Shown here: positions 32,778-59,775 of the stretch, in pieces
How the letters are laid out: the number at the start of each line of letters is the position of its first letter
Numbering within the stretch: position 1 is the stretch's first letter
NCBI RefSeq assembly: GCF_003075415.1
Contig: NZ_QDAH01000004.1
Span: 1 to 64,000 of the forward strand
Reading direction: 5' to 3'
Length of the DNA stretch: 64,000 bases
Source of the DNA: Microvirga sp. KLBC 81
Lineage (GTDB): Bacteria > Pseudomonadota > Alphaproteobacteria > Rhizobiales > Beijerinckiaceae
The notes under the pieces: generated by a model
Told to the model about the DNA's origin: nothing
The model's database searches: none
What the model saw: only the letters and a program-made list of their open reading frames with translations
Translations under genes and position numbers: made by a program

Positions 32778-33208
32778 GAAACTATCCGGATCGGGTCTAG
32801 GGCGGGATCGATTATGCATACATAACTCGAATTTCCCATGCGAGGTCCGCCGCCAGTTACGTTGGGTCATTCGGGTGCGCCATTCGCCAGGCGTCTTTTT
32901 AGCTACTTCTTCTGGTTGAACAGGCGCGAATTCAATATTCTGTTGCTCAAGACCGATTCCGCTTTTTCCCATTGGTTAAACCTGGGTTTATTGCAAACGG
33001 AAAGTTGACCCCAAGTTTTCCAAAGTTTTCCTTCTAATGATCTTGTTTTCAGAGCGAATTTGCCATACCTGAACGAGTAGGCACGATTTCTGTGCGTGTA
33101 CAGTGCGGTTCAAGAATGAAGCAAGCATTGCTTGCGCGATGACTGCTCAAAAATAAGGCCGAAAGGCATTTGAGCTGTTCTTATGGGCCGGAAAGGAAGA
33201 AAATCAAA
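32778..33208. other. 431-base AT-richer intergenic region upstream of mucR
   Basis: Divergent region between oligopeptidase B and mucR. It is visibly richer in A/T than its flanks and contains a direct repeat AAGTTTTCC-AAAGTTTTCC (33013-33031) next to TTGACC (33005). MucR homologues bind AT-rich DNA containing T-A steps and repress their own genes, so autoregulatory sites here are plausible. I could not assign a convincing -35/-10 pair or a small ORF. Confidence 0.4.
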
Positions 33209-33637
33209 ATGAGCGACAATATCGCTGCATCGAACTACATTGAGCTGGCTGCGGATATCGTCTCGGCCTATGTGAGCAACAATTCTGTTCCGTCGGGCGA
33301 GCTGCCTGCGCTGATCAACGATGTCCACTCGGCTCTCATGCGTGTTGGTGGCGGCACCGTCGAAGCCCCGGCCGAGGCTCCGAAGCCTGCCATCCCCGTG
33401 AAGAAGTCCGTCACTCCCGACTACATCGTCTGCCTCGAGGACGGTAAGAAGTTCAAGTCGCTGAAGCGCCATCTGCGCACTCAGTACAACATGACCCCCG
33501 AGCAGTATCGCGAGAAGTGGGCTTTGCCGGTGGATTACCCGATGGTTGCCCCGAACTACGCCAAGGCTCGTTCCGAGCTCGCGAAGGAAATGGGTCTCGG
33601 CCAGCAGCGCCGGAAGCGCCGTTCCTCGCGCGGCTAA
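33209..33637 (+). CDS. mucR: MucR/Ros-family transcriptional regulator
   Basis: Zinc-finger-like DNA-binding regulator of 142 residues, related to H-NS-like MucR proteins that silence AT-rich genes and control exopolysaccharide and virulence. The N terminus ([19 protein letters not shown]) is the oligomerisation part; the DNA-binding core is [20 protein letters not shown] followed by [18 protein letters not shown]; the C terminus is basic ([11 protein letters not shown]). The ligand pattern is C-x2-D-x9-H-x3-Q: the last zinc ligand, His in Brucella MucR, is replaced by Gln. The ATG at 33209 has a GGAA site; a strong terminator follows. Confidence 0.94.
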
Positions 33638-33862: not shown

Positions 33863-34831
33863 ATGAACAAAAATGAGAACGAGCGAGTTCATCAAACGAT
33901 TGCCCCCGCAGGGATTACCGTGCGCCGGAAGACTAAAAAGCAAAGGCTTGCCAATCAGATGAGAGGGGCGGGCGGTCCTGTTCCCATGGCGGCATGGTCC
34001 ACATCCCTCCCGCGAGAGGCAGCACGACTTCTGGCTGTGCTCGACGTTGCGGAAACTCGCGTCATGGTCGATCCCACCGACGAGGGGAGCGTCATCGTCC
34101 ACAGGAAGCGCGCAGGCATATCGGTCGGTGCCGGGCGCTTTGGAGCCGCGGATGCGGAGACGCTCGTTCGGCAGGATCTTGCCTGCTGGCAGCGTGGCGA
34201 AGCGGGACAAAGGACGCTGGTTCTGAGCGAGGCGGGCCGCTCTTATCTGCGCCGCGCGTCCGTGGATGAGCCGGAAGCAGCCTTTCTGCACCAGCACCGG
34301 GAAACCGTCACCGCCACGATCCAGACCGAGGTCGGCTTGAAACGGGTGCGGATGGATGCGGAGGAGAGTCCTCTCGACTGGCTGCGCCGCCGCAAGGATC
34401 GCAACGGGGTGCCGATGATCGACGAGTCCGCTTATCAGGCCGGCGAGAGGCTGCGCACGGACATCATGCTGGCTGGCCTCTTGCCGGGCGTGACGGCGCG
34501 GTGGGATGCGATGCCGACCGGGGGTGGTCCTGCCTCACCGTCGGAGGCGACCGATCGCATGATTGCCGCCCGCCAGCGCATCCGGCATGCCTTCGATGCA
34601 GTCGGTTCCGACTTCAGCGATCTGCTCATGGATCTGTGCGGCTTCCTGAAGGGTCTGGAACAGATCGAACGCGAGCGGGGGTGGCCACAGCGCTCCGCCA
34701 AGATCGTGGTGCGCCTCGCCTTGGCAAGGCTCGCCGAGCATTACGGCATCGAAGCCGCCGCACGGGGACCTGCGGGTTCGCGCGGCATCAAGACGTGGCG
34801 GGCCGTCGTGATCGAGGGAGGGCGGGCCTAA
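33863..34831 (+). CDS. DUF6456 family protein
   Basis: Conserved alphaproteobacterial protein of 322 residues with unknown function. Two parts are visible: an N-terminal segment (residues 45-150) resembling a winged-helix arrangement (REAARLLAVLDVAETRVMVD to GQRTLVLSEAGRSYLRR), and the C-terminal DUF6456 core (ESPLDWLRRRKDRNGVPMID, ERLRTDIMLAGLLPGVTARW, DLLMDLCGFLKGLEQIERER, ending GIKTWRAVVIEGG). The core's dense Arg/Trp content suggests nucleic-acid binding; this is inference. Monogenic, downstream of mucR but separated by its terminator; repeat copies A2 and B1 follow. Confidence 0.8.
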   Translation: MNKNENERVHQTIAPAGITVRRKTKKQRLANQMRGAGGPVPMAAWSTSLPREAARLLAVLDVAETRVMVDPTDEGSVIVHRKRAGISVGAGRFGAADAETLVRQDLACWQRGEAGQRTLVLSEAGRSYLRRASVDEPEAAFLHQHRETVTATIQTEVGLKRVRMDAEESPLDWLRRRKDRNGVPMIDESAYQAGERLRTDIMLAGLLPGVTARWDAMPTGGGPASPSEATDRMIAARQRIRHAFDAVGSDFSDLLMDLCGFLKGLEQIERERGWPQRSAKIVVRLALARLAEHYGIEAAARGPAGSRGIKTWRAVVIEGGRA

Positions 34832-34959: not shown

Positions 34960-35053
34960 AGCTGATTCCATTGGCACGGAATCAGCTCTCTTCTTTGCCG
35001 GGCCGCATTCTTTGATGGTGAGCCGGAGCCACTTCACCAAAAAAAGCTCTAGA
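34957..35053. repeat. Palindromic repeat, family B (copy B1)
   Basis: Opens with AGAGCTGATTCCATTGGCAC, forms the hairpin AGCTGATTCC/GGAATCAGCT, continues CTCTTCTTTGCCGGGCCGCA, then GGTGAGCCGGAGCCACTTCA, and ends AAAGCTCTAGAG. Its last bases contain the CTA that is the sufE stop codon on the minus strand. The other copy is 46044-46138. Confidence 0.85.
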
Positions 35054-35477
35054 GAGCAGCCTGGGCCATCTGCGCATCGCGGCGGATGCGCTCGACCATG
35101 GATCTGACGCCGTTCGACCGTTGCGGCGTCAGATGTTCCGCAAGGCCAAGCTCCTTGAAAAGGCCAAGCGCATCGGTGGAGAGGGCTTCCTCGGGCGTCT
35201 TGCCGTTGTAGAGCGCGATCATGAGCGCCACGAGGCCGCGGACGATGTGGGCGTCGCTATCCCCCAGAAGGTGGAGCACAGGCTCGCCGTCGGATTGGTC
35301 GAGGCGCATCTCGAGCCAGACCTGGCTCGCGCAGCCCTTCACCTTGTTCGCCTCGGTATGGGCTTCCTCCGGCAGCGGCTCCATCATCCGCCCCAGCTCA
35401 ATCACATAGCGATAGCGCTCTTCCCAGTCGTCGAGCAGCTCGAAATTGGAGACGATCTCGTCAATGGTCGGCAGCAT
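35049..35477 (-). CDS. sufE: SufE family cysteine desulfuration protein
   Basis: Accepts persulfide sulfur from the SufS desulfurase for Fe-S cluster assembly. The 142-residue protein has the active-site Cys in NKVKGCASQVWLEM, preceded by RYRYVIELGRMMEPLPEEAH, and the conserved ADxFKELGLAEHLTPQRSNG-type tail (here DALGLFKELGLAEHLTPQRS). No suf operon is near; SufE is often encoded alone in Rhizobiales. Start at 35477 matches homologues (MLPTIDEIVSNFELLDDW); an ATG at 35504 would add nine residues, and neither has a clear ribosome site. The TAG stop lies within repeat B1. Confidence 0.93.
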   Translation of the reverse strand: MLPTIDEIVSNFELLDDWEERYRYVIELGRMMEPLPEEAHTEANKVKGCASQVWLEMRLDQSDGEPVLHLLGDSDAHIVRGLVALMIALYNGKTPEEALSTDALGLFKELGLAEHLTPQRSNGVRSMVERIRRDAQMAQAAL

Positions 35478-35545
35478 GGCATCCCTGCTTTGTCTGCCGT
35501 TCATATAATCATTGCCGAAGCGTTTGGCGACGGGCCGGCTGACAA

Positions 35546-48866: not shown

Positions 48867-49016
48867 ATCATGAAATATAATAATATTGCTTTGAGAGCGC
48901 AATCCTTGAACCTGCCTCAAGTTCTCCTAGAAACATGATGTTGAGCAAAGTCTAGATGGAAGGAAGATTATCCGGAGTCGCCTTCGGAAAAGCTCTCGGA
49001 TTCATATCGAGCAGTT

Positions 49017-49175
49017 TCAGCTTTTGGGTGCACTGAAAGCCTCTGCCGCGCAGACCAGGGTGAATAGAGCGATCACGCCTGCCAATTCTGCGACGTTCAC
49101 GATGATCGCTGAAGGATCGAGGACGTAGAAAAGCGCGCCCATTGCGAGCGCGATGATGGTAGCCCAAGCGAGCAT
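49017..49175 (-). CDS. 52-residue two-helix membrane protein (putative)
   Basis: The frame starts at ATG 49175 after a GGGAGAAGG ribosome site and ends with TGA at 49019-49017. The product has two hydrophobic stretches, MLAWATIIALAMGALFYVLD and VAELAGVIALFTLVCAAEAF, separated by a short polar turn, and a short tail SAPKS. A competing longer frame on the same strand is Arg-rich and not membrane-like. Unknown function; a small bitopic or hairpin membrane protein. It sits between the kinase gene and the divergent exonuclease/phosphatase-family gene. Confidence 0.5.
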   Translation of the reverse strand: MLAWATIIALAMGALFYVLDPSAIIVNVAELAGVIALFTLVCAAEAFSAPKS

Positions 49176-49407
49176 GGGCCTTCTCCCGGCATATTCTTGT
49201 GCGCCTCACTAACTCGAAAGAGGCAAAGAAGTTCCTAATACTCCGAAAATTTTTCTCTCGTGGCCCATGGTCGGCCCGACTGCGTTAGGTGTGACGGAAC
49301 CAATGGCGGGAGCGAGAGCCTTGCGCCCTTTGATCGACCGAAGCGTGCAAAATCTTCCTTGTCCGGAAATACCTCTTCTGCAGGAGGCACGCCGCTCGAC
49401 GCATGAC

Positions 49408-50346
49408 ATGACGGCTCACCGTGAATTCATGGATCGTATCGAGGCTCTTCACGTCATCGAAGCCCAGCCTCCGGGAAAGAAACAGTCAGTTCCAAGGAGG
49501 TTGCGCATCGCCGCCTTGAATGCCGAGCGACTGACACGGCCCGAAGCGGTCAGGCACCTGATCGAGAAGACAGGCGCTCACGTCGCGCTTTTGAGCGAAG
49601 TGGATGTGGGCATGGCCCGTTCCGGCAATAGCCACACGATCCGCGATCTCACCGGCTCCCCGGGGTGGGGCTATCTCTACGGGGTCGAGTTCATCGAACT
49701 CGACCTGGGTGATGAAAAAGAAATGCGCCGCCATGCAGGCGAGCGAAATGCGTGCAGTCTTCATGGCAATGCCATTGTGAGCGGCCTCGCCTTCGAACAG
49801 CCTCACGTGATCCCGCTCGAAGAGAGCGGATTGTGGTTCAAGGGAATCGAAGGTGCTCAAAGACGGATCGGCGGAAGGATTGCCGTTGCCGCACGCTTGG
49901 CCGATGCACCGCGTCCCTTGTGGATCGTGAGCCTGCATCTCGAAAGCAAGACGGATCCAGCGGATCGCCGGGTGCAGGTTCGGAACCTATTGTCCGCTCT
50001 TGAAAAGCTGATGCCGAACGAGGCCTGCATCATAGGCGGAGATTTCAACTCCAAGGCGCTGCCGAATGGCGAGGGAGAACGGCATCTGCTGCTGGAGCAG
50101 CCGGAACGATACGAACCATTCTTTGCAGATCTTCGCGATGCAGGATTTTCATGGGCGGCTGCGAATCTTGCCTCTCCGACTCAGCGCGATGGTCCGTCGA
50201 AGAAGCATCCCAGGCCTTTCGGCAAGCTCGACTGGTTCTTCGTGCGGGGCATTGCGGCAGAAGACCCGCAGGTCATCCCCGCCCTGGATTCACAAGGACA
50301 GGCGATTTCCGATCACGAAATGATCATCGTGGACCTCCAGTTCTGA
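49408..50346 (+). CDS. Endonuclease/exonuclease/phosphatase family protein
   Basis: Metal-dependent phosphoesterase of about 312 residues. EEP motifs: LRIAALNAERL (metal Asn/Glu), HVALLSEVDVGMARSGN, GNAIVSG, WIVSLHLESKTDPADRRVQ (catalytic His), CIIGGDFNSKALP (DFN), FGKLDWFFVRG and ISDHEMIIVDL (terminal SDH). Substrate unknown; nuclease, lipid phosphatase and sphingomyelinase-like activities share this fold. No signal peptide. The start is uncertain: 49408 is used because the conserved region begins soon after, but the frame is open to 49267. Confidence 0.8.
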   Translation: MTAHREFMDRIEALHVIEAQPPGKKQSVPRRLRIAALNAERLTRPEAVRHLIEKTGAHVALLSEVDVGMARSGNSHTIRDLTGSPGWGYLYGVEFIELDLGDEKEMRRHAGERNACSLHGNAIVSGLAFEQPHVIPLEESGLWFKGIEGAQRRIGGRIAVAARLADAPRPLWIVSLHLESKTDPADRRVQVRNLLSALEKLMPNEACIIGGDFNSKALPNGEGERHLLLEQPERYEPFFADLRDAGFSWAAANLASPTQRDGPSKKHPRPFGKLDWFFVRGIAAEDPQVIPALDSQGQAISDHEMIIVDLQF

Positions 50347-50378
50347 GCGGTCATCCGAGCCATCCCTCAAAATCCCGC

Positions 50379-50407
50379 TTGACAGCGCACCGCTGATAGG
50401 GTACAAA
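50379..50407 (+). promoter_or_regulatory. Sigma-70-type promoter for candidate sRNA
   Basis: Perfect -35 TTGACA (50379-50384), 17-base spacer and a -10-like TACAAA (50402-50407). The expected start is near 50414, upstream of two hairpins and a terminator. It lies 33 bases after the preceding gene and drives the plus strand toward the GTA-like cluster. Confidence 0.6.
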
Positions 50408-50413
50408 ACGTGA

Positions 50414-50497
50414 ACACTGACGAAGTGTGAATGAAACCCGCCCGGCTTCATTGTGATAAATGACCTCCACCGCTCAAGCGCCGCTTGGGCGGTTTTT
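50414..50497 (+). ncRNA. Candidate small RNA of about 84 nt
   Basis: No open frame. Hairpin 1: ACACT/AGTGT (50414-50418 with 50424-50428, loop GACGA). Hairpin 2: ATGAAACC/GGCTTCAT (50431-50438 with 50444-50451, one mismatch, loop CGCCC). Then a single-stranded stretch TGATAAATGACCTCCAC containing ACCTCC, complementary to a Shine-Dalgarno sequence, and finally the terminator hairpin with five T. Promoter, folded body, anti-SD motif and terminator together resemble trans-acting alphaproteobacterial sRNAs; I cannot name the family. Confidence 0.55.
50470..50497 (+). terminator. Rho-independent terminator upstream of GTA cluster
   Basis: CCGCTCAAGCG (50470-50480) pairs with CGCTTGGGCGG (50482-50492), with the inner base pairs opened to form the loop, and is followed by TTTTT. 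It closes the candidate sRNA and would also stop read-through from the upstream gene into the GTA genes. Confidence 0.9.
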
Positions 50498-50507
50498 CGT
50501 TGGGCTC

Positions 50508-50702
50508 CAGCATCGGCCCCAAAAGTGGACTTGCACTTTTGGGATCCATCCGATGCTTTCTCCTTCAATGAGAGCATCGTTGAAAGCGGACCTTCGGTTC
50601 CGCACGATGCTCTCGATGCTCCCTGTTCGAGCGGGGCATCGTTCGCCGCAGACCGGAGGTCTGCGCCAGTGAAAAAACCGGGCCCACTTTTCGCATGATG
50701 TG
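50508..50702. repeat. Palindromic repeat, family A (copy A4, extended)
   Basis: Contains AGCATCGGCCCCAAAAGTGG, GCACTTTTGGGATCC, CGATGCTTTCTCCTTCAATG, GAGCATCGT, CGGACCTTCGGTTCCGCACG, ATGCTC twice, and ends CCGGGCCCACTTTTCGCATG. Compared with A1 the order of modules is inverted. It ends two bases before the annotated TerS start, so it must form the leader of the GTA mRNA if transcription begins upstream. Confidence 0.85.
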
Positions 50703-50704
50703 CC

Positions 50705-51253
50705 ATGTATCCCAGAACCGAGGTTCCCGACGAGAAGCGGCAGCAGGCCTATCTCTATTACGCAGGTCATCCGAAGCTCACTTTGAACGACATCGCCGCC
50801 TATCTCGGCGTGAGCTTGAGTTCCTTCGTTCGCCTGAGGCAGCGTTGGGACTGGCCGCCGCGTCATGCGGCGCTCGCTCAGAACGAGTTGAGCAAGGCTG
50901 CGAAGGATCCGACCGATATTCTTGCCGGGAGCACGGCAGCGGCGACGTCCCTGCGCGAAGCGGCGCGCTCCCTGGCGCGGGCCACCCGGTCGCAGATCAA
51001 CGCTCTCATGGAGCAGCAACGCAGCGGGTGCATCGACGATCACGACCGGACCGCCCGGACACTGGCCTCCTATGCCAAGACGTTGACGACAGCGCGGGCG
51101 CTCCTGGAGCAGGAAGGTTCAAGGCTCGATGAGACCGAGCATCAAGATGAGACGCCCCGCAGCCTCCATGAACTCCGTGACGAGCTTGCTCGCCATCTTG
51201 AGCGGGTTATCGCGGAGGAGGAGGCTCGCGGAAGCGACGGCCTCCTTATCTAA
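50705..51253 (+). CDS. GTA small terminase-like protein (g1 position)
   Basis: 182-residue protein at the head of the GTA-type cluster. The N terminus has a helix-turn-helix-like segment (LTLNDIAAYLGVSLSSFVRL) with RQRWDWPPRHAALAQNEL, followed by Ala-rich helices (DILAGSTAAATSLREAARSL) and an acidic tail. In Rhodobacter capsulatus the equivalent position is g1, reported as the small terminase that delivers DNA to TerL; the DNA-binding motif, helical body and position support the same role here. It overlaps the large terminase start by up to 86 bases. Assignment is by position and architecture. Confidence 0.7.
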   Translation: MYPRTEVPDEKRQQAYLYYAGHPKLTLNDIAAYLGVSLSSFVRLRQRWDWPPRHAALAQNELSKAAKDPTDILAGSTAAATSLREAARSLARATRSQINALMEQQRSGCIDDHDRTARTLASYAKTLTTARALLEQEGSRLDETEHQDETPRSLHELRDELARHLERVIAEEEARGSDGLLI

Positions 51254-52514
51254 AACCGAACTCGAACAGCTACTTCGCTATTGGCCGATCCGCTGCCGCC
51301 CCGAGCAGCGTCTGCCGGGCTTGAGCCGGCGTCATGATCCCTGGACGCTCTGGCTCATGCTGGGCGGGCGAGGGGCGGGAAAGACCCGCACCGGCTCCGA
51401 ATGGATACGCGGCATCGCTCTTGGCGAGCCGGATTTTACTGACGCTCCGATGCGGCGCATTGCACTGATCGGAGAAACATTTTCGGATGCGCGCAACGTG
51501 ATGGTGGAGGGACCGGCCGGCATTCTTTCCGTCCATGCCCGTCATGAACGGCCGACCTGGTCGCCGTCCCTGCGCAAGCTCGAATGGCCCAACGGCGCGG
51601 TGGCGCATGTGTTCTCCGCCGAGGATCCGGACTCTCTCCGCGGTCCTCAATTCGAGGCTGCGTGGGCGGATGAACTCGCCAAGTGGAAGCACGTGGAGGA
51701 AACCTGGGACATGCTGCAGTTCGGATTGCGCCTAGGAGTACATCCGCGCCAGATGGTAACGACCACGCCAAGGCCCATTCCGTTGCTGAAGCGCTTTCTC
51801 GCCGATCCTTCAGTGGCGGTCTCCCGCGCCCGGACATCGGACAATGCGGCCAACCTCGCGCCCGCCTTCCTGGAAGCTGTTGTCGGGCGTTATGCCGGCA
51901 CGCGGCTCGGACGGCAGGAGCTTGATGGCGACATCATCGAGGATCGCCCCGATGCGCTCTGGACCCGCGACATGATCGAGATGAGCCGGGTCGATGGCGT
52001 GCCGCCGCTCATGCGCATCGTCGTTGCCGTCGATCCGCCTGCGTCCTCATCGAAGCGCGCGGATGCCTGCGGCATCGTTGCGGCGGGCTTGGATGAGGGT
52101 GGCACGGCTTATGTGCTGGAGGATGCGACGGCATCCGGCCTCAAGCCGCCGGAATGGGCGGCCAAGGCGGTCGCTCTCTACCGGCGGCTTGAGGCCGACG
52201 CCTTGATCGTCGAAACGAACCAGGGCGGCGAGATGGCGACCAGCGTGATCCGTGAGGTCGACCCTGCCGTGCCGGTGATGAGCGTGCGCGCCATGCGCGG
52301 AAAGTATCTGCGTGCGGAGCCCGTCTCGGTTCTTTATGCGCAGGGCCGCGTGCGCCATGTGGGGGCGTTACCTGAGCTCGAAGATGAACTCTGCGATTTC
52401 GGGCCCGGTGGACTCACGTCAGGCCGTTCGCCCGACCGCATGGATGCGCTCGTCTGGGCGCTCACCGAACTGATGCTGCGAGACGGACGAGAGCCGCGTG
52501 TGCGGATGCTATAG
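51168..52514 (+). CDS. GTA large terminase subunit (TerL, g2)
   Basis: Packaging motor ATPase-nuclease. Walker A LGGRGAGKTRTGSEW, Walker B-like FEAAWADELAKWKH, coupling motif QMVTTTPRPIPLLKRFLAD, and the RNase H-like nuclease with MRIVVAVDPPASSSKRADAC, DALIVETNQGGEMATSVIRE and a terminal SPDRMDALVWALTELML. Length from MNSVTSLL at 51168 is 448 residues, usual for GTA TerL. The reading frame extends to 51129, and no strong ribosome site marks either start. Motor residues are intact, so packaging is plausible. Confidence 0.9.
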   Translation: MNSVTSLLAILSGLSRRRRLAEATASLSKTELEQLLRYWPIRCRPEQRLPGLSRRHDPWTLWLMLGGRGAGKTRTGSEWIRGIALGEPDFTDAPMRRIALIGETFSDARNVMVEGPAGILSVHARHERPTWSPSLRKLEWPNGAVAHVFSAEDPDSLRGPQFEAAWADELAKWKHVEETWDMLQFGLRLGVHPRQMVTTTPRPIPLLKRFLADPSVAVSRARTSDNAANLAPAFLEAVVGRYAGTRLGRQELDGDIIEDRPDALWTRDMIEMSRVDGVPPLMRIVVAVDPPASSSKRADACGIVAAGLDEGGTAYVLEDATASGLKPPEWAAKAVALYRRLEADALIVETNQGGEMATSVIREVDPAVPVMSVRAMRGKYLRAEPVSVLYAQGRVRHVGALPELEDELCDFGPGGLTSGRSPDRMDALVWALTELMLRDGREPRVRML

Positions 52515-53120: not shown

Positions 53121-54314
53121 ATGCTGACCAAATTGACCCGCTGGTTTCAGGCGCCGCCTGAAGCCAAGGCTTCGCGCGCGCATTCGGCCGTTGCGTTCTA
53201 TTTCGACGGACGCGCTGTCTGGACGCCACGCGACTACACAGCGCTCGCTCGCGAAGGCTTCCAGAAGAATGCCATCGTTCACCGTGCGGTGCGGCTCGTG
53301 GCCGAGGCGGCGGCGTCTCTGCCTCTTACGTTGAAACAGGGGGAGCGCGATCTCGCGGCCCATCCGGTGCTGACGCTGCTTGCACGTCCGAATGCCCGTG
53401 AGGGCGGGCAGCGCTTTCTGGAAAGCGCCTATGGACATCTCATGGTGTCGGGCAATGCCTATGTGGAGGCCGTCGGCGTCGATGGGGCGCCTGCGGAACT
53501 CTACGTTCTACGGCCTGACCGGATGCGCGTTGTGCCAGGTTCCGATGGGTGGCCCGCTGCGTATGAATACACGGTCGGAACGGAAACGGTGCGCTTTGCG
53601 ATCGGGCAGGGGGAGGCGGTTTCGCCGATCCTGCACCTGACGCTCTTTCATCCGGCTGACGATCATTATGGTCTCTCGCCGATGGAAGCCGCGGCGGCTG
53701 CCCTCGACATTCACAACGCGGCGGGCGCCTGGAACAAGGCGCTCCTCGACAACGCAGCCCGGCCATCCGGCGCGCTCGTCGTCGGCGGAGCGACTCTGAC
53801 CGATGCGCAGTTCGACCGGTTGAAGAGCGAGTTGGAAGAGAATTATCAGGGCGCCTCCAATGCGGGCCGTCCGCTGCTTCTCGAAGGCGGGCTCGATTGG
53901 AAGCCACTGTCCCTTTCGCCGAAGGACATGGACTTCGTGGAAGCGAAAGCGGCGGCCGCACGAGAAATTGCACTCGCCTTCGGTGTGCCGCCGTTGTTGT
54001 TGGGTCTTCCGGGCGACAACACCCACGCCAATTATGCGGAAGCGAACCGCGCCTTCTATCGTCAGACCGTGATCCCCCTCGTGAAGCGTACGATGGAAGC
54101 CTTCGCGCAATGGCTCTCGCCCGGCTTTGGCGAGGTGCTGCATCTCGAACCCGATCTCGATGCCATTGAGGCGCTGGCCGACGAGCGTGAAAGCCTCTGG
54201 CGCCGCATATCGTCTGCCTCGTTCCTGACCGATGACGAGAAGCGCGAGGCGGTGGGTTACGGGCGTGGTGCTGTTGTTCGTGCAGGCAGGGGAAAGCAGA
54301 GGAGAACAGCTTAA
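53121..54314 (+). CDS. GTA portal protein (HK97 family, g3)
   Basis: Twelve-fold ring protein through which DNA enters the capsid. 397 residues: YTALAREGFQKNAIVHRAVR, PVLTLLARPNAREGGQRFLE, HLMVSGNAYVEAVGVDGAPA, LYVLRPDRMRVVPGSDGWPA, HLTLFHPADDHYGLSPMEAA, NAARPSGALVVGGATLTDAQ and GVPPLLLGLPGDNTHANYAE are all HK97 portal blocks. Start at 53121 follows AGGAG. The C terminus is basic (GRGAVVRAGRGKQRRTA). Followed by 444 bases of repeats before the next GTA gene. Confidence 0.92.
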   Translation: MLTKLTRWFQAPPEAKASRAHSAVAFYFDGRAVWTPRDYTALAREGFQKNAIVHRAVRLVAEAAASLPLTLKQGERDLAAHPVLTLLARPNAREGGQRFLESAYGHLMVSGNAYVEAVGVDGAPAELYVLRPDRMRVVPGSDGWPAAYEYTVGTETVRFAIGQGEAVSPILHLTLFHPADDHYGLSPMEAAAAALDIHNAAGAWNKALLDNAARPSGALVVGGATLTDAQFDRLKSELEENYQGASNAGRPLLLEGGLDWKPLSLSPKDMDFVEAKAAAAREIALAFGVPPLLLGLPGDNTHANYAEANRAFYRQTVIPLVKRTMEAFAQWLSPGFGEVLHLEPDLDAIEALADERESLWRRISSASFLTDDEKREAVGYGRGAVVRAGRGKQRRTA

Positions 54315-54959: not shown

Positions 54960-55105
54960 ACCGCACCTTGCCCCGCCCTGCCCGGAAGCCGAAAGCCGTG
55001 CGGAATGGGCAGAGCCGCGCCTCGCTCGTGTTCCGCGACTTCGTACGCCAACTCGAGAAGCTCGATGCGAAGCCGGAAAAGCCTCCGCGTGGAGTGCGAG
55101 CATGA
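54956..55105 (+). CDS. 49-residue basic protein between g3.5 and protease
   Basis: Begins in the ATGA overlap at 54956 and ends in another ATGA overlap with the protease start at 55102. The product, MNRTLPRPARKPKAVRNGQS then RASLVFRDFVRQLEKLDAKP and a short tail, is strongly basic with one amphipathic helix (FRDFVRQLEKL). Two ATGA junctions argue strongly for real, coupled translation although it is very short. Function unknown; a scaffold or DNA-binding assistant in prohead assembly would suit its position and charge but is speculation. Confidence 0.7.
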   Translation: MNRTLPRPARKPKAVRNGQSRASLVFRDFVRQLEKLDAKPEKPPRGVRA

Positions 55106-55641
55106 AACTGGCTGTCATTCCCACCACGCAGGAGATGAAGTTTCTTAGCCAGCCTCTGAACGCCGTCGATGACGGCGGCGTCTTCGAGGGCTATGCCAGC
55201 TTGTTCGGCGTCGCCGATCTCGGCAAGGACGTGGTCATGCCGGGAGCTTTCACGGATAGTTTGAAGAAACGCGAGGCGAGCGCGGTCCGGCTGCTCTGGC
55301 AGCACGATCCCGCCACGCCCATCGGCCGCTGGCTCTCCATCGAAGAGGACCGGCGCGGGCTTCGCGTTCGCGGCAAGCTCAACCTCGCCGTCGAGCGGGC
55401 GCGGGATATCCATGCGCTGCTGCGCGAGGGCGCCGTCGATGGGCTCTCCATCGGCTTTCGGGTGGAGCGGGCGAGGGCCGAACGGCCCACCGGCCTGCGA
55501 CGACTCGAAAAGCTCGATCTGTGGGAGATCTCAGTCGTGACCTTCCCCATGCTCCCTGGCGCGCGGGTTGAGGCCGTAAAGCGGGTGCCGGGAAATCTCG
55601 CCTCCACCATCCGCACCACGGCCGCTCGATTATTTTCCTGA
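55102..55641 (+). CDS. GTA prohead protease (HK97/S78 family, g4)
   Basis: Serine protease that trims the capsid delta domain during maturation. 179 residues: FEGYASLFGVADLGKDVVMP, GAFTDSLKKREASAVRLLWQ-HD with the catalytic His, IGRWLSIEEDRRGLRVRGKL, and AVDGLSIGFRVERARAERPT with the catalytic Ser, then LEKLDLWEISVVTFPMLPGA. All expected residues are present, so the protein looks active. Translationally coupled to the upstream 49-residue gene. Confidence 0.93.
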   Translation: MKLAVIPTTQEMKFLSQPLNAVDDGGVFEGYASLFGVADLGKDVVMPGAFTDSLKKREASAVRLLWQHDPATPIGRWLSIEEDRRGLRVRGKLNLAVERARDIHALLREGAVDGLSIGFRVERARAERPTGLRRLEKLDLWEISVVTFPMLPGARVEAVKRVPGNLASTIRTTAARLFS

Positions 55642-55990: not shown

Positions 55991-56027
55991 GTTGAAGCCC
56001 AACCCTTTTCAAGACCTTTGGATTGAT

Positions 56028-57266
56028 ATGATTCCTGTTGTTGAAACCAAATCGGTATCCGACGATGTCGCGTCGGCTTTCGATGATTTCGCCCGCGCCT
56101 TCGAGGCTTTCAAGGACGCCAACGATACGCGCCTGTCCGAGATCGAGACGCGCCTGACGAGCGACGTTGTCACGGAAGAAAAGCTCACCCGCATCGACGC
56201 CGCGCTCGATGATGCCAAGCGCCGTCTCGATCGCCTGGCCCTCGACCGCTCCCGTCCGCCACTTGGCCGGGTCGGGGATGCTCCGCGCGATCCGATGCAG
56301 GCCGAGCACAAGACGGCCTTCCACACCTATATGCGTTCGGGAGAGGCCACGGGCCTGAAGCGTCTCGAAGAAAAAGCACTATCCGCCGGTTCCGGCCCGG
56401 ATGGCGGCTACCTCGTGCCCGACACGGTCGAAACGGAAGTGCTGCGTCGTCTCTCGGCCATCTCGCCGATCCGTGCGATCTCGTCGGTACGCGTGATCTC
56501 GGGCGGTCAGTACAAGCGCGCCTTCTCCACCTCGGGCCCGGCCACCGGCTGGGTGGGAGAAACGGCGGCGCGTCCCCAGACCGCCGGTCCGACCCTTTCC
56601 GAACTCAGCTTCCCGGCCATGGAGCTCTATGCCATGCCGGCGGCCACCCAGACCCTCCTTGACGATGCGGTGGTCGATATCGACCGCTGGATCGCGGAAG
56701 AGGTCGAAGCGGCCTTCGCCGAGCAGGAAAGCGCCGCCTTCGTGAACGGCGACGGCGTCAACAAGCCGAAAGGCTTCCTCGCTTCGGACATCGTGGAGGA
56801 CGATACCTGGAGCTGGGGCAAGCTCGGTGCCATCCATACGGGCGGCGCGGCATTCCCGTCCTCCAATCCGTCGGATGTGCTGGTGGAGCTGATTTATGCC
56901 CTCAAGGCGGGCTATCGCCAGAACGCCTCCTTCGTCATGAACCGCAAGACGCAGAGCGCGATCCGCAAGTTCAAGGACTCGAACGGCCAGTATCTCTGGG
57001 CTCCGCCCGCAAGCGCCGGCCAATCCGCGACCCTCATGGGTTTCCCCGTGGTGGAGGCCGAGGACATGCCTGACATTGCGGCCGGTTCCTGCGCCCTTGC
57101 CTTTGGCGATTTCAAGCGCGGTTATCTGATCGTCGATCGGGCCGGCATGCGCGTGCTGCGCGATCCATATTCCGCAAAGCCCTACGTGCTGTTCTACACC
57201 ACCAAGCGCGTGGGTGGCGGTGTGCAGGATTATGCGGCGATCAAGCTGCTGAAGTTTGCTGCCTAA
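56028..57266 (+). CDS. GTA major capsid protein (HK97 fold, g5)
   Basis: 412 residues from ATG 56028. An N-terminal coiled delta/scaffold region (SAFDDFARAFEAFKDANDTR to ALDDAKRRLDRLALDRSRPP) is removed by the g4 protease, with cleavage likely near residue 95-110 before HKTAFHTYMRSGEATGLKRL. The capsid core follows: SAGSGPDGGYLVPDTVETEV, TGWVGETAARPQTAGPTLSE, YAMPAATQTLLDDAVVDIDR, ESAAFVNGDGVNKPKGFLAS and a C-terminal VRLDPY-like MRVLRDPYSAKPYVLFYTTK. The TTG at 55992 is a weaker start candidate. Confidence 0.95.
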   Translation: MIPVVETKSVSDDVASAFDDFARAFEAFKDANDTRLSEIETRLTSDVVTEEKLTRIDAALDDAKRRLDRLALDRSRPPLGRVGDAPRDPMQAEHKTAFHTYMRSGEATGLKRLEEKALSAGSGPDGGYLVPDTVETEVLRRLSAISPIRAISSVRVISGGQYKRAFSTSGPATGWVGETAARPQTAGPTLSELSFPAMELYAMPAATQTLLDDAVVDIDRWIAEEVEAAFAEQESAAFVNGDGVNKPKGFLASDIVEDDTWSWGKLGAIHTGGAAFPSSNPSDVLVELIYALKAGYRQNASFVMNRKTQSAIRKFKDSNGQYLWAPPASAGQSATLMGFPVVEAEDMPDIAAGSCALAFGDFKRGYLIVDRAGMRVLRDPYSAKPYVLFYTTKRVGGGVQDYAAIKLLKFAA

Positions 57267-57555: not shown

Positions 57556-58353
57556 TTAGCGTCTCGCCCATGCGCCTTCGGAGGTGGCGAGGCTGCGGAC
57601 GGCCTGCCTGATCCAACCGAGATGCTCGACGATGGGTGTCACGGCGGTCAGGCCTCCGCAGGCGCTGGGCTCGCGCGTGCGCATGGCGCCGCTCGACCAG
57701 CTGACGATGCCGTAGAGCAGATAGCTGTTCTCGGTCGCGGCGAGGATCGGCCCGCCGGAATCGCCCCGGCAGGCGCCGGCGCCGCTCGTTTCCGCCAATC
57801 GCTGGCGGTCGACCACGATCAGCACGCGATTGGCTACCTGAATGGGGCCGAGCGAAACGAGATTGGCCTGGCGCAGAATGCGCGCGGTCTGCTTGCGCCG
57901 TTCGGTCAACACGCCGAAACCTGCAATGGTCACCTCGTCGCCGACGTCGATCGATCCGGCAAGCGTTGGGTCGAGCGGCAGGAACTCCGGACCGAGCGGA
58001 CGTTCAAGGCGCAGGATCGCGAGATCGACACCGGGCTGCGTGCGAGGAGTCGTGCCCGTCACGAAGGAGGGATGCACGGCCAGAGCAACGACCTTGAACC
58101 GCTGCGGCTTGAAGGTCCGATTGACTGCAACGACGCGATAAGCGGCTGAATCGGTGACGCAATGAGCTGCGGTCAGCACCAGGTCTGGGCTAATGAGGGC
58201 ACCGGAGCAAAGCTCGCCTGCGGAATTTTCGATGGAAACGACGGAGCGTCGCAATCCGTTCGGATCCCGTGATGTCGCGCCCAGCAGAACGGCCTGCGCG
58301 GACCCCGTGAAGAGGGTGAGGGCGATGAAGGCGATCAATGAAAGGGCGCGCAT
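57556..58353 (-). CDS. Secreted trypsin-like serine protease 1 (antisense within GTA cluster)
   Basis: S1 family protease of 265 residues with a signal peptide (LIAFIALTLFTGSAQA). Triad: His in LVLTAAHCVTDSAAY, Asp in GVDLAILRLERPLG, Ser in AGACRGDSGGPILAATENSY; the S1-pocket region is LYGIVSWSSG. N-terminal VLLGATSRDP resembles an activation sequence. Mature enzyme is predicted periplasmic or secreted. It and the next gene are antisense to the flanking GTA genes between g5 and g6; canonical clusters have no such gene. Confidence 0.88.
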   Translation of the reverse strand: MRALSLIAFIALTLFTGSAQAVLLGATSRDPNGLRRSVVSIENSAGELCSGALISPDLVLTAAHCVTDSAAYRVVAVNRTFKPQRFKVVALAVHPSFVTGTTPRTQPGVDLAILRLERPLGPEFLPLDPTLAGSIDVGDEVTIAGFGVLTERRKQTARILRQANLVSLGPIQVANRVLIVVDRQRLAETSGAGACRGDSGGPILAATENSYLLYGIVSWSSGAMRTREPSACGGLTAVTPIVEHLGWIRQAVRSLATSEGAWARR

Positions 58354-58439: not shown

Positions 58440-59183
58440 TTAGTTGCCGTTCCACAACGCCGCACGGTTCCAAGCCCTCAGGGTACGATCGATCCATTCC
58501 CTCTGTGGGCCAAGGAGAATGCCTTGCGTCGGTCCTCCGCAGCCTTGCCCGCGTGATGGTGACGACCACGATGTGATGGCTGCAACGGCTGATCCTGATG
58601 CCATCGGACCACCGGAATCGCCCTGGCAGGCTCCCATAGCTCCTGAGCCTTGGGACCAAAGCAGGATCTTGCTGGGGCCATGAGGCTCCGTCACCGTTAG
58701 GGATGCAGTACGGAAGGTTCCGGTGGTCTTGGCATCGCCTTCACGGGCCAGTCCATAGCCACCGACAAGGATGGTTTCATCCTTGGCAGGCTTAGTGGCG
58801 GTGAGCGTTGCCCGCTCGAAACGCTCCGGCAGGGCCTCAGGGATGCGCACGAGCGCAAGGTCGATGGAGCGCTGCCGGGTCGCGATGGCTTTCGCATTGT
58901 AGCCAGGATGCACGGCCTTCGCTGAGGGGGTGATCAGCACCGGTTCGCCCGCCTCGTCGCGAAAATGCACCCGATGCTCGTCCGCGCCCGTCACGCAATG
59001 GGCTGCGGTGAGGACCACATCGCGCGCCACCACGACGGCGCTGCAGACGCCGCCATTCGAACTCAACACCATCACGCTCTGACGGGCGAGGGGACTTTGG
59101 TCCTCCGCACCGCCGACGATGGCTTTTGCTCCGGTCGCAGCAAGCGAGAGGGCGAGGGAGAGCGTGATCAGACGATTCATCAT
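58440..59183 (-). CDS. Secreted trypsin-like serine protease 2 (antisense within GTA cluster)
   Basis: 247-residue S1 protease, paralogue of the one downstream. Signal peptide ITLSLALSLAATGAKA, then IVGGAEDQSPLAR, the classic trypsin neo-N terminus. Triad: VVLTAAHCVTGADEH, RSIDLALVRIPEALP, and GACQGDSGGPMASGSAVAAI. ITSWSSPSRGQGCGG follows. Start at 59183 (ATGATG with AGGA site); an open frame continues to 59765 but runs through the antisense g6 gene. The start codon is only 18 bases from the g6 start on the other strand, leaving no room for two separate promoters between them. Confidence 0.88.
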   Translation of the reverse strand: MMNRLITLSLALSLAATGAKAIVGGAEDQSPLARQSVMVLSSNGGVCSAVVVARDVVLTAAHCVTGADEHRVHFRDEAGEPVLITPSAKAVHPGYNAKAIATRQRSIDLALVRIPEALPERFERATLTATKPAKDETILVGGYGLAREGDAKTTGTFRTASLTVTEPHGPSKILLWSQGSGAMGACQGDSGGPMASGSAVAAITSWSSPSRGQGCGGPTQGILLGPQREWIDRTLRAWNRAALWNGN

Positions 59184-59201
59184 GGAAGGAATCCTGTTGC
59201 G

Positions 59202-59762
59202 ATGATCCCGATATTCGTTGATGGCCCCGCCGTCGAGCCCGTAACGTTGCTTGAGATGAAGGCCTATCTGCGCGTCGACGACGAGGCGGAGGACGATCTG
59301 GTCTCCGGGCTCATCAAGGCCGCGCGGCTCATGGTGGAATCCGCCTCCCGGCGCATCCTGATCGAGCAGCGCTGGCGGGTGGTGATGGATCGTTGGCCGC
59401 AGGGCGGGAAGGTGCTGCTGCCGATCGCGCCCTTGCTGGCCGTTGACAGCATCAGGGTGACGGACGCTGCAGGCTCCTCCACGGACATTCCCGCGGCTTC
59501 CATCGAGACGGATGCCGCGAGCGATCCGCCCTGCATTGCCGTTGCCGATGTCCCGGAGCCAGGCAAGGTGAGAAACGGCATCGAGATCGAGCTGCGCGCA
59601 GGTTACGGCGCTTCGCCCGATGCCGTGCCGGCCACCTTGAAGCTCGCGATCAAGGTTCTTGTGGCCCATTGGTTCGAGAACCGGGGCGATGCGGCAGGCG
59701 AGCAGATCCTGCCGCTGCAGGCGATGGCGCTCATGGCTCCGTTCCAGCGGGCGCGTCTCTGA
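59202..59762 (+). CDS. GTA head-tail connector/adaptor (g6)
   Basis: 186-residue protein of the phage head-tail connector family (gp6-like). Visible: PVTLLEMKAYLRVDDEAEDD, LIKAARLMVESASRRILIEQ, RWRVVMDRWP and a C-terminal AVPATLKLAIKVLVAHWFEN followed by RGDAA. The N-terminal EMKAYLRVD...D motif is the hallmark of the family, shared by RcGTA g6. Start at 59202 has AAGGA upstream. It opens the tail-completion part of the cluster after the trypsin insertion. Confidence 0.88.
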   Translation: MIPIFVDGPAVEPVTLLEMKAYLRVDDEAEDDLVSGLIKAARLMVESASRRILIEQRWRVVMDRWPQGGKVLLPIAPLLAVDSIRVTDAAGSSTDIPAASIETDAASDPPCIAVADVPEPGKVRNGIEIELRAGYGASPDAVPATLKLAIKVLVAHWFENRGDAAGEQILPLQAMALMAPFQRARL

Positions 59763-59775
59763 CATTCATCCACAC

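Follow-up and report, generated by a model that had tools for sequence, protein, structure and literature searches.

A promoter-leader module ahead of the GTA cluster of Microvirga: a probable GafZ-controlled antitermination switch

Analysis of a short unit (positions 50379–50497) in a 64,000-nucleotide stretch of Microvirga sp. KLBC 81 (contig NZ_QDAH01000004.1, positions 1–64,000, hereafter called the window) leads us to regard it as probably belonging to the GTA operon itself, as its promoter and leader, organized in the manner of the lambda late promoter and working as a switch in which GafZ controls antitermination and whose default product would be a short RNA (about 84 nt). The unit is composed of the following elements:

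50379–50384, + strand: -35 element TTGACA, kept in 47 of the 47 aligned members of the genus
50383–50395, + strand: inverted repeat CAGCG-CAC-CGCTG in the spacer, a candidate GafZ binding element (ZBE-like) whose place matches that of the Caulobacter ZBE as given in the extract of PMC11150451
50402–50407, + strand: -10 element TACAAA, 17 nt past TTGACA in all 47 genus members
50413–50418, + strand: second -10-like hexamer AACACT, 5 nt after the -10, a candidate sigma-dependent promoter-proximal pause element
50414–50497, + strand: predicted short leader RNA of about 84 nt, with a putative start site
50414–50428, + strand: hairpin 1 (ACACT/AGTGT), within the near-invariant first 25 nt or so
50430–50452, + strand: hairpin 2 (AATGAA/TTCATT), variable
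50463–50468, + strand: ACCTCC, anti-SD-like, immediately 5' of the terminator
50469–50497, + strand: intrinsic terminator of the leader (stem 50469–50493, T-run 50493–50497)

The promoter, its 17-nt spacer, both hairpins, ACCTCC and the terminator are each found where the original prediction, made from the letters of the window, had placed them. The predicted fold of the unit has an energy of -30.4 kcal/mol (z -3.06), with 2 of 200 shuffles equally good, compared with a z of -1.90 and 9 of 200 shuffles for the reverse strand. The terminator was also recovered by a consensus scan, which returned zero promoters in 49000–52000 under a rule demanding T at the last -10 position. Searching Rfam by covariance, as had been suggested, gave nothing that reaches a gathering score anywhere in the window; at the unit itself the sub-threshold scores are those of CC0196 (RF01519), weakly similar to its 3' part at 15.4 bits (gathering score 35), and of atpB at 9.3 bits (cut-off 37.4), and nothing usable appears around the unit at E up to 10.

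Conservation in relatives, another check that had been proposed, is borne out within the genus. Using a stretch of 156 bases as query, which has a single match in its own genome, the unit was found to be carried by 46 of the 47 other Microvirga genomes, whereas blastn with the same query gave no match in 53 genomes of other genera. In the resulting alignment of 47 members the promoter, the spacer repeat and the first 25 nt or so are near-invariant, variation is concentrated in the middle, and the terminator is retained; recovery from 46 of 47 genomes together with the near-invariance of promoter and start shows that the presence of the unit is not due to chance. In 41 of the 47 members both arms of the repeat read exactly AGCG/CGCT, and in the other six (L016, L023, L031, L040, L044, L046) one arm is altered. 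The second hexamer conforms to NAnnnT in every member and reads AACACT itself in 42. A leader terminator is detected in 47/47 members by an RNAfold-based scan and in 33/47 by a strict scan.

Downstream of the unit, the window contains an RcGTA-like cluster with terminase, portal, prohead protease and capsid in that order:

50705–51253, + strand: GTA gene 1 (small-terminase position), the first gene past the leader
51129–52514, + strand: GTA large terminase (Terminase_6N and Terminase_6C), given as the longest ORF, its true start not being settled
53121–54314, + strand: GTA portal (Phage_portal)
55102–55641, + strand: GTA prohead protease (Peptidase_S78)
55992–57266, + strand: GTA major capsid protein (Phage_capsid)

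Gene 1 starts 11–30 nt past the U-tract in 33 of the 47 genus members, and on this ground we take the unit to be, most likely, the GTA operon's own promoter with its leader. The gap in those 33 is so small that it leaves little room for another promoter, and GTA transcription coming from this side must therefore cross the terminator. More broadly, gene 1 lies within 400 nt of the U-tract in 42/47 members (median 13 nt), the remaining five being two genomes with a decayed GTA (G009, G036) and three whose terminase is 1.7–3 kb off (G017, G044, G046). The earlier suggestion of a short terminated transcript tied to the GTA cluster is supported, as a likely default product.

Some further features of the locus may be recorded here. 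The N-terminal part of gene 1 shows a sub-threshold match to HTH_23 (20.6 bits, Pfam cut-off 24.6). A dispersed palindromic repeat with 58 matches in the genome occupies 50508–50700, between the leader terminator and gene 1. Two trypsin-like protease genes (Pfam Trypsin; 57556–58353 and 58440–59765, both on the - strand) lie antisense within the GTA cluster, and similar-looking ORFs, judged by eye, persist in the decayed loci of G036 and G009 (L069, L070).

In order to follow the arrangement beyond Microvirga, 33 regions upstream of GTA terminases from other genera were examined for the full module, defined as a -35, a spacer palindrome of any letters with arms of at least 4 bases, a -10, and NAnnnT 5 nt later. 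The full module is present in 15 of them, with none on the reverse strand and a shuffle mean of 0.2. It is absent from the other 18; in two of these (L073, L074) promoter and palindrome are present but the second hexamer is missing, and the remaining 16 have neither. Most of the palindromes in other genera read AGCG..CGCT, and four regions, each from a different genus, differ jointly in both arms: ATCG..CGAT in L060, ACCG..CGGT in L063 and L079, and ACCG..CGGC in L067, the latter being close to the L063/L079 version with its outermost pair unmatched. Such joint change of the two arms is what one would expect if a protein binds there. The letters conserved across genera are those of promoter, spacer and start, and the leader bodies differ.

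The exact pattern TTGACAGCGNNNCGCTNNNNNNNTA gave 55 matches in 53 of 101 genomes, against 2 matches for the backward control. By comparison of coordinates, 50 of the 55 stand upstream of a terminase on the same strand and within about 3 kb of it; the five exceptions are one match in G071, two in G079 and one each in G009 and G036. An untargeted scan of genome contigs with a looser pattern yielded at least 120 sites in at least 118 stretches, at least 119 of the sites fitting the pattern as searched. Among the matches listed, 77 of the 97 sites with at least 1.5 kb of downstream sequence are followed within 3 kb, on the same strand, by a GTA gene, counted as a match at E up to 1e-4 to TerL, portal, protease, capsid or gene 1; for 20 none was found nearby, some of these with a similar start region; the hosts in this same listed set are mostly Hyphomicrobiales and Sphingomonadales. 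No GTA link was seen among the inspected sites from other phyla or from Gammaproteobacteria (L099, L110, L128, L135, L185, L202). Viral contigs contributed 122 sites for the looser pattern, with GTA-type genes downstream in 71 of 110, and these look like GTA stretches binned as viral. Five sites with a similar promoter signature and no GTA gene found nearby (L115, L140, L166, L181, L182; three from Pseudolabrys) are possibly the promoters of a second operon under the same control; in four of them (L115, L140, L181, L182) the first ORF starts with MTPR or MTRR.

For the second hexamer and the leader terminator, a wider set of 149 non-redundant GTA-linked promoters was assembled, 81 from genome contigs (among the matches listed) and 68 from viral contigs; the counts that follow for this set all hold among the matches listed. 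NAnnnT occurs at offset 33 or 34 from the start of the -35 in 139 of the 149, and elsewhere between offsets 28 and 40 in 8; without the six Microvirga stretches the hexamer is still present in 133 of 143. The motif is also found at offsets 41–44 (113/149), where it forms part of another conserved block, and the first hexamer is therefore not the sole such match. Within 250 nt of the predicted start, the RNAfold-based scan detects a terminator in 47 of the 149 promoters, whereas shuffled sequences give 11.7, the reverse complement gives 9 and stretches lying upstream give 8 of 132; the strict scan detects 39, compared with 4.4, 3 and 12 of 132, respectively. Six of the 47 are from Microvirga, so that 41 of 143 remain without that genus. 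The enrichment of leader terminators is clear in this set. The RNAfold-based scan finds none for the other 102 promoters, for some of which termination may occur by other means or further on.

A gene for the presumed regulator is present in the same window, 16 kb from the unit:

33863–34831, + strand: GafZ homologue (DUF6456), candidate anti-terminator (PF20057, 151.8 bits, cut-off 26.3)

Its DUF6456 domain is above cut-off at 34346–34747, and the gene is flanked by mucR (33170–33637) before and sufE (35049–35504) after, which is the arrangement that the available part of PMC9638019 gives for the Hyphomicrobiales equivalent, namely a DUF6456 protein whose gene is preceded by mucR and followed by sufE. 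DUF6456 is present in 46 of 48 Microvirga genomes. Of the two others, G007 is devoid of DUF6456, terminase and unit, all three, and G025, whose assembly is fragmented, has unit and terminase and gives no DUF6456 hit. The gap between mucR and gafZ is 226 bases, and there is therefore no gafY between them. Elsewhere in this genome, the lone DnaA-C match was considered as a gafY candidate and rejected; it has an open frame of 563 aa and was so taken as DnaA. Likewise, 42 of the 48 genus genomes have a single DnaA-C match that is by its length DnaA itself, and in the six with a second match none lies beside gafZ by coordinates. In four of seven regions from other genera (L327, L328, L330, L331), small DnaA-like genes with a gafY-like DnaA-C domain above the Pfam cut-off precede gafZ; in L326, L329 and L332 no DnaA-like gene was seen by eye before gafZ among ORFs of at least 70 aa. 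Where a promoter was found, its -35 begins with TTGAC with or without a gafY-like gene. A near-consensus -35 and the lack of an adjacent gafY fit a control exerted after initiation.

From these elements we infer a switch that would operate as follows. Sigma-70 polymerase would initiate at the near-consensus promoter, at or near the start site predicted above, and may pause at the second -10-like hexamer. By default it would halt at the leader terminator and release the RNA of about 84 nt. Once made, the GafZ homologue would bind the inverted repeat between -35 and -10, join the paused polymerase and take it past the terminator into gene 1 and the whole GTA cluster. Several observations count against such a switch: the one-arm changes in six of the 47 genus members, the 18 of 33 regions from other genera without the module, the 102 of 149 wider promoters without a leader terminator, the further NAnnnT matches at offsets 41–44, the 20 of 97 pattern sites with no GTA gene found nearby, the missing DUF6456 hit in G025, the differences from the Caulobacter and lambda promoters set out below, and the retention of unit and gafZ, both intact, in G009 and G036 (L069–L072) although the GTA has decayed there. 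The GTA queries still recover a gp5 fragment from each of these two genomes and, from G036, a capsid as well. Recent decay and an added role of the RNA both fit this retention.

That retention is also one of the arguments for what had first been proposed, a free-standing trans-acting sRNA with its own promoter and terminator, whose ACCTCC would pair with ribosome binding sites and which adjoins or regulates the GTA cluster. The fold that beats its shuffles and the occurrence of CCTCC in 37 of the 47 genus leaders point the same way; CCTCC is however missing from the other 10, and the longer ACCTCC is found in 30 and absent from 17. Covariation was analyzed on 35 of the 47 leaders, L045–L047 being left out together with L007, L026, L028, L033, L035, L038, L040, L042 and L044, whose lengths or bodies align poorly. 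For the whole structure, 20 cells are changed on both sides compared with 8.6, which is above all 500 shuffles, as is the covariation score; the number of pairs changed on both sides (4 compared with 3.1 in shuffles) is reached by 154 of the 500 shuffles and that of further pair types (15 compared with 14.4) by 234. Compensatory changes, which were to be checked for, do exist and fall mainly in the terminator helix (18 of the 20 cells). Helix 1 has 97.7% of its cells paired and no pair changed on both sides, for which reason hairpin 1 was rejected as a conserved RNA structure, and helix 2 has 76.3% of cells paired; in the leaders of other genera no counterpart of hairpin 1 was seen by eye. Since CCTCC is absent from 10 members, since both-sided change is mostly that of a terminator, since the unit fronts GTA gene 1 in most members, and since other genera, with leader bodies unlike this one, have the promoter module ahead of their GTA genes too, the leader evidence speaks against an anti-SD sRNA as the main role. 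Adding that conservation is strongest in promoter, spacer repeat and first 25 nt or so and that Rfam offers no match at gathering score, we consider the trans-acting sRNA unlikely, while an additional RNA function may exist in the genomes with a decayed GTA.

A conventional attenuator, in which the leader RNA would refold on a signal (metabolite, protein or translation) with no anti-terminator loaded at the promoter, would account for the terminator that follows the promoter in 47 of 47 genus members. It appears distinctly unlikely, given that helix 2, the sole other candidate in the one predicted fold, is poorly kept, that leader bodies vary between genera while the spacer repeat is kept, and that the letters conserved across genera avoid the leader body in favour of promoter, spacer and start. 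Alternatively, the repeat might be bound by a regulator that affects initiation alone, whether an activator or a repressor (GafZ, by itself or together with GafY, would be one example), and the terminator might do no more than insulate the cluster from upstream transcription. Repeats between -35 and -10 do often bind regulators. Initiation at the Caulobacter promoter, moreover, requires GafY and IHF according to the extract of PMC11150451. Against this stands the terminator itself, which is located downstream of the promoter and would therefore cut the operon's own transcript. The near-consensus -35 argues in the same direction, as such a -35 in Caulobacter is reported in the same extract to give a promoter about six times weaker that is active with or without GafYZ (PMC11150451), and so do the lack of a gafY beside gafZ and the single DnaA-C match in most genomes of the genus. 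We therefore hold control of initiation only to be very unlikely, and retain the GafZ-controlled antitermination switch as the probable explanation.

Since the cells that produce GTAs die, how production is switched on is a standing question. We further propose, being slightly more doubtful than confident of it, that a single ancestral late-promoter switch is common to the RcGTA-type GTAs of Hyphomicrobiales and Sphingomonadales. It would consist of a near-consensus promoter that is always firing and gives a short RNA, combined with a GafZ site interdigitated with it and a sigma pause element, through which GafZ is loaded onto the polymerase. In lineages without gafY, GTA production would then depend on antitermination alone, after initiation. 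Should this reading hold, a phage late-gene switch would have survived domestication in two orders, a signature of about 60 bp would be enough to recognize GTA control, and a simple reporter would allow GafZ action to be tested. GTA promoters are marked by this signature, and perhaps second sites away from GTA genes are as well. The default RNA could mark a poised GTA and may have a role of its own where it outlives the cluster. The case also illustrates a pitfall, that of an operon leader mistaken for a small RNA gene. No description of the module was found in the open-licence papers searched, and within that literature the promoter-leader module is probably undescribed, related antitermination of the GafZ/Q type being already known.

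Among known systems, the closest parallel is PgtaT of Caulobacter crescentus. As far as the extract of PMC11150451 (Tran and Le 2024) goes, this promoter of the GTA core cluster has, as here, a near-perfect palindrome between -35 and -10, a GafZ-type (DUF6456) gene in the genome and a terminator that separates it from most of the cluster; GafZ is described there as an anti-terminator that lets some polymerase pass a terminator, and its enrichment at the GTA promoter needs the palindrome in the -35/-10 spacer. According to the same source (PMC11150451), PgtaT differs in its degenerate -35, in the letters of its palindrome and in the position of the terminator tested, which follows the first gene, whereas in Microvirga the -35 is near consensus and the terminator is in the leader before gene 1. 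In Microvirga, furthermore, the second -10-like hexamer is fixed and no gafY is found beside gafZ. In Rhodobacter capsulatus, the C-terminal part of GafA is DUF6456-like, as is the GafZ homologue here, and the accessible part of PMC9638019 describes both DNA-binding parts as joined in one protein that contacts RNAP omega, whereas only the GafZ part is found here. The Caulobacter promoter was also sought by pattern, and the lone match in 385 genomes was no GTA.

The comparison extends to lambda. In a lambda stretch of 551 bases, the promoter after Q, which we take to be the late promoter pR', reads TTGACT, 17 nt, TAAATT, 6 nt, AACGAT. The default product of the lambda late promoter is 6S RNA, which has 194 nt and is terminated before the late genes; the leader predicted here is shorter, at about 84 nt. 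Both promoters have a -10-like element at the beginning of the transcribed region; it reads AACGAT in lambda and AACACT here and is separated from the -10 by 6 nt and 5 nt, respectively. In lambda, the -10-like element at +1 to +6 pauses sigma-70 polymerase at about 16 nt, as stated in the extract of PMC4604602. GafZ is described in the available part of PMC11150451 as having no sequence or structural similarity to Q, and the site of the anti-terminator Q is placed by the same source within pR', just as the site of GafZ is proposed to lie within the promoter of the Microvirga GTA operon.
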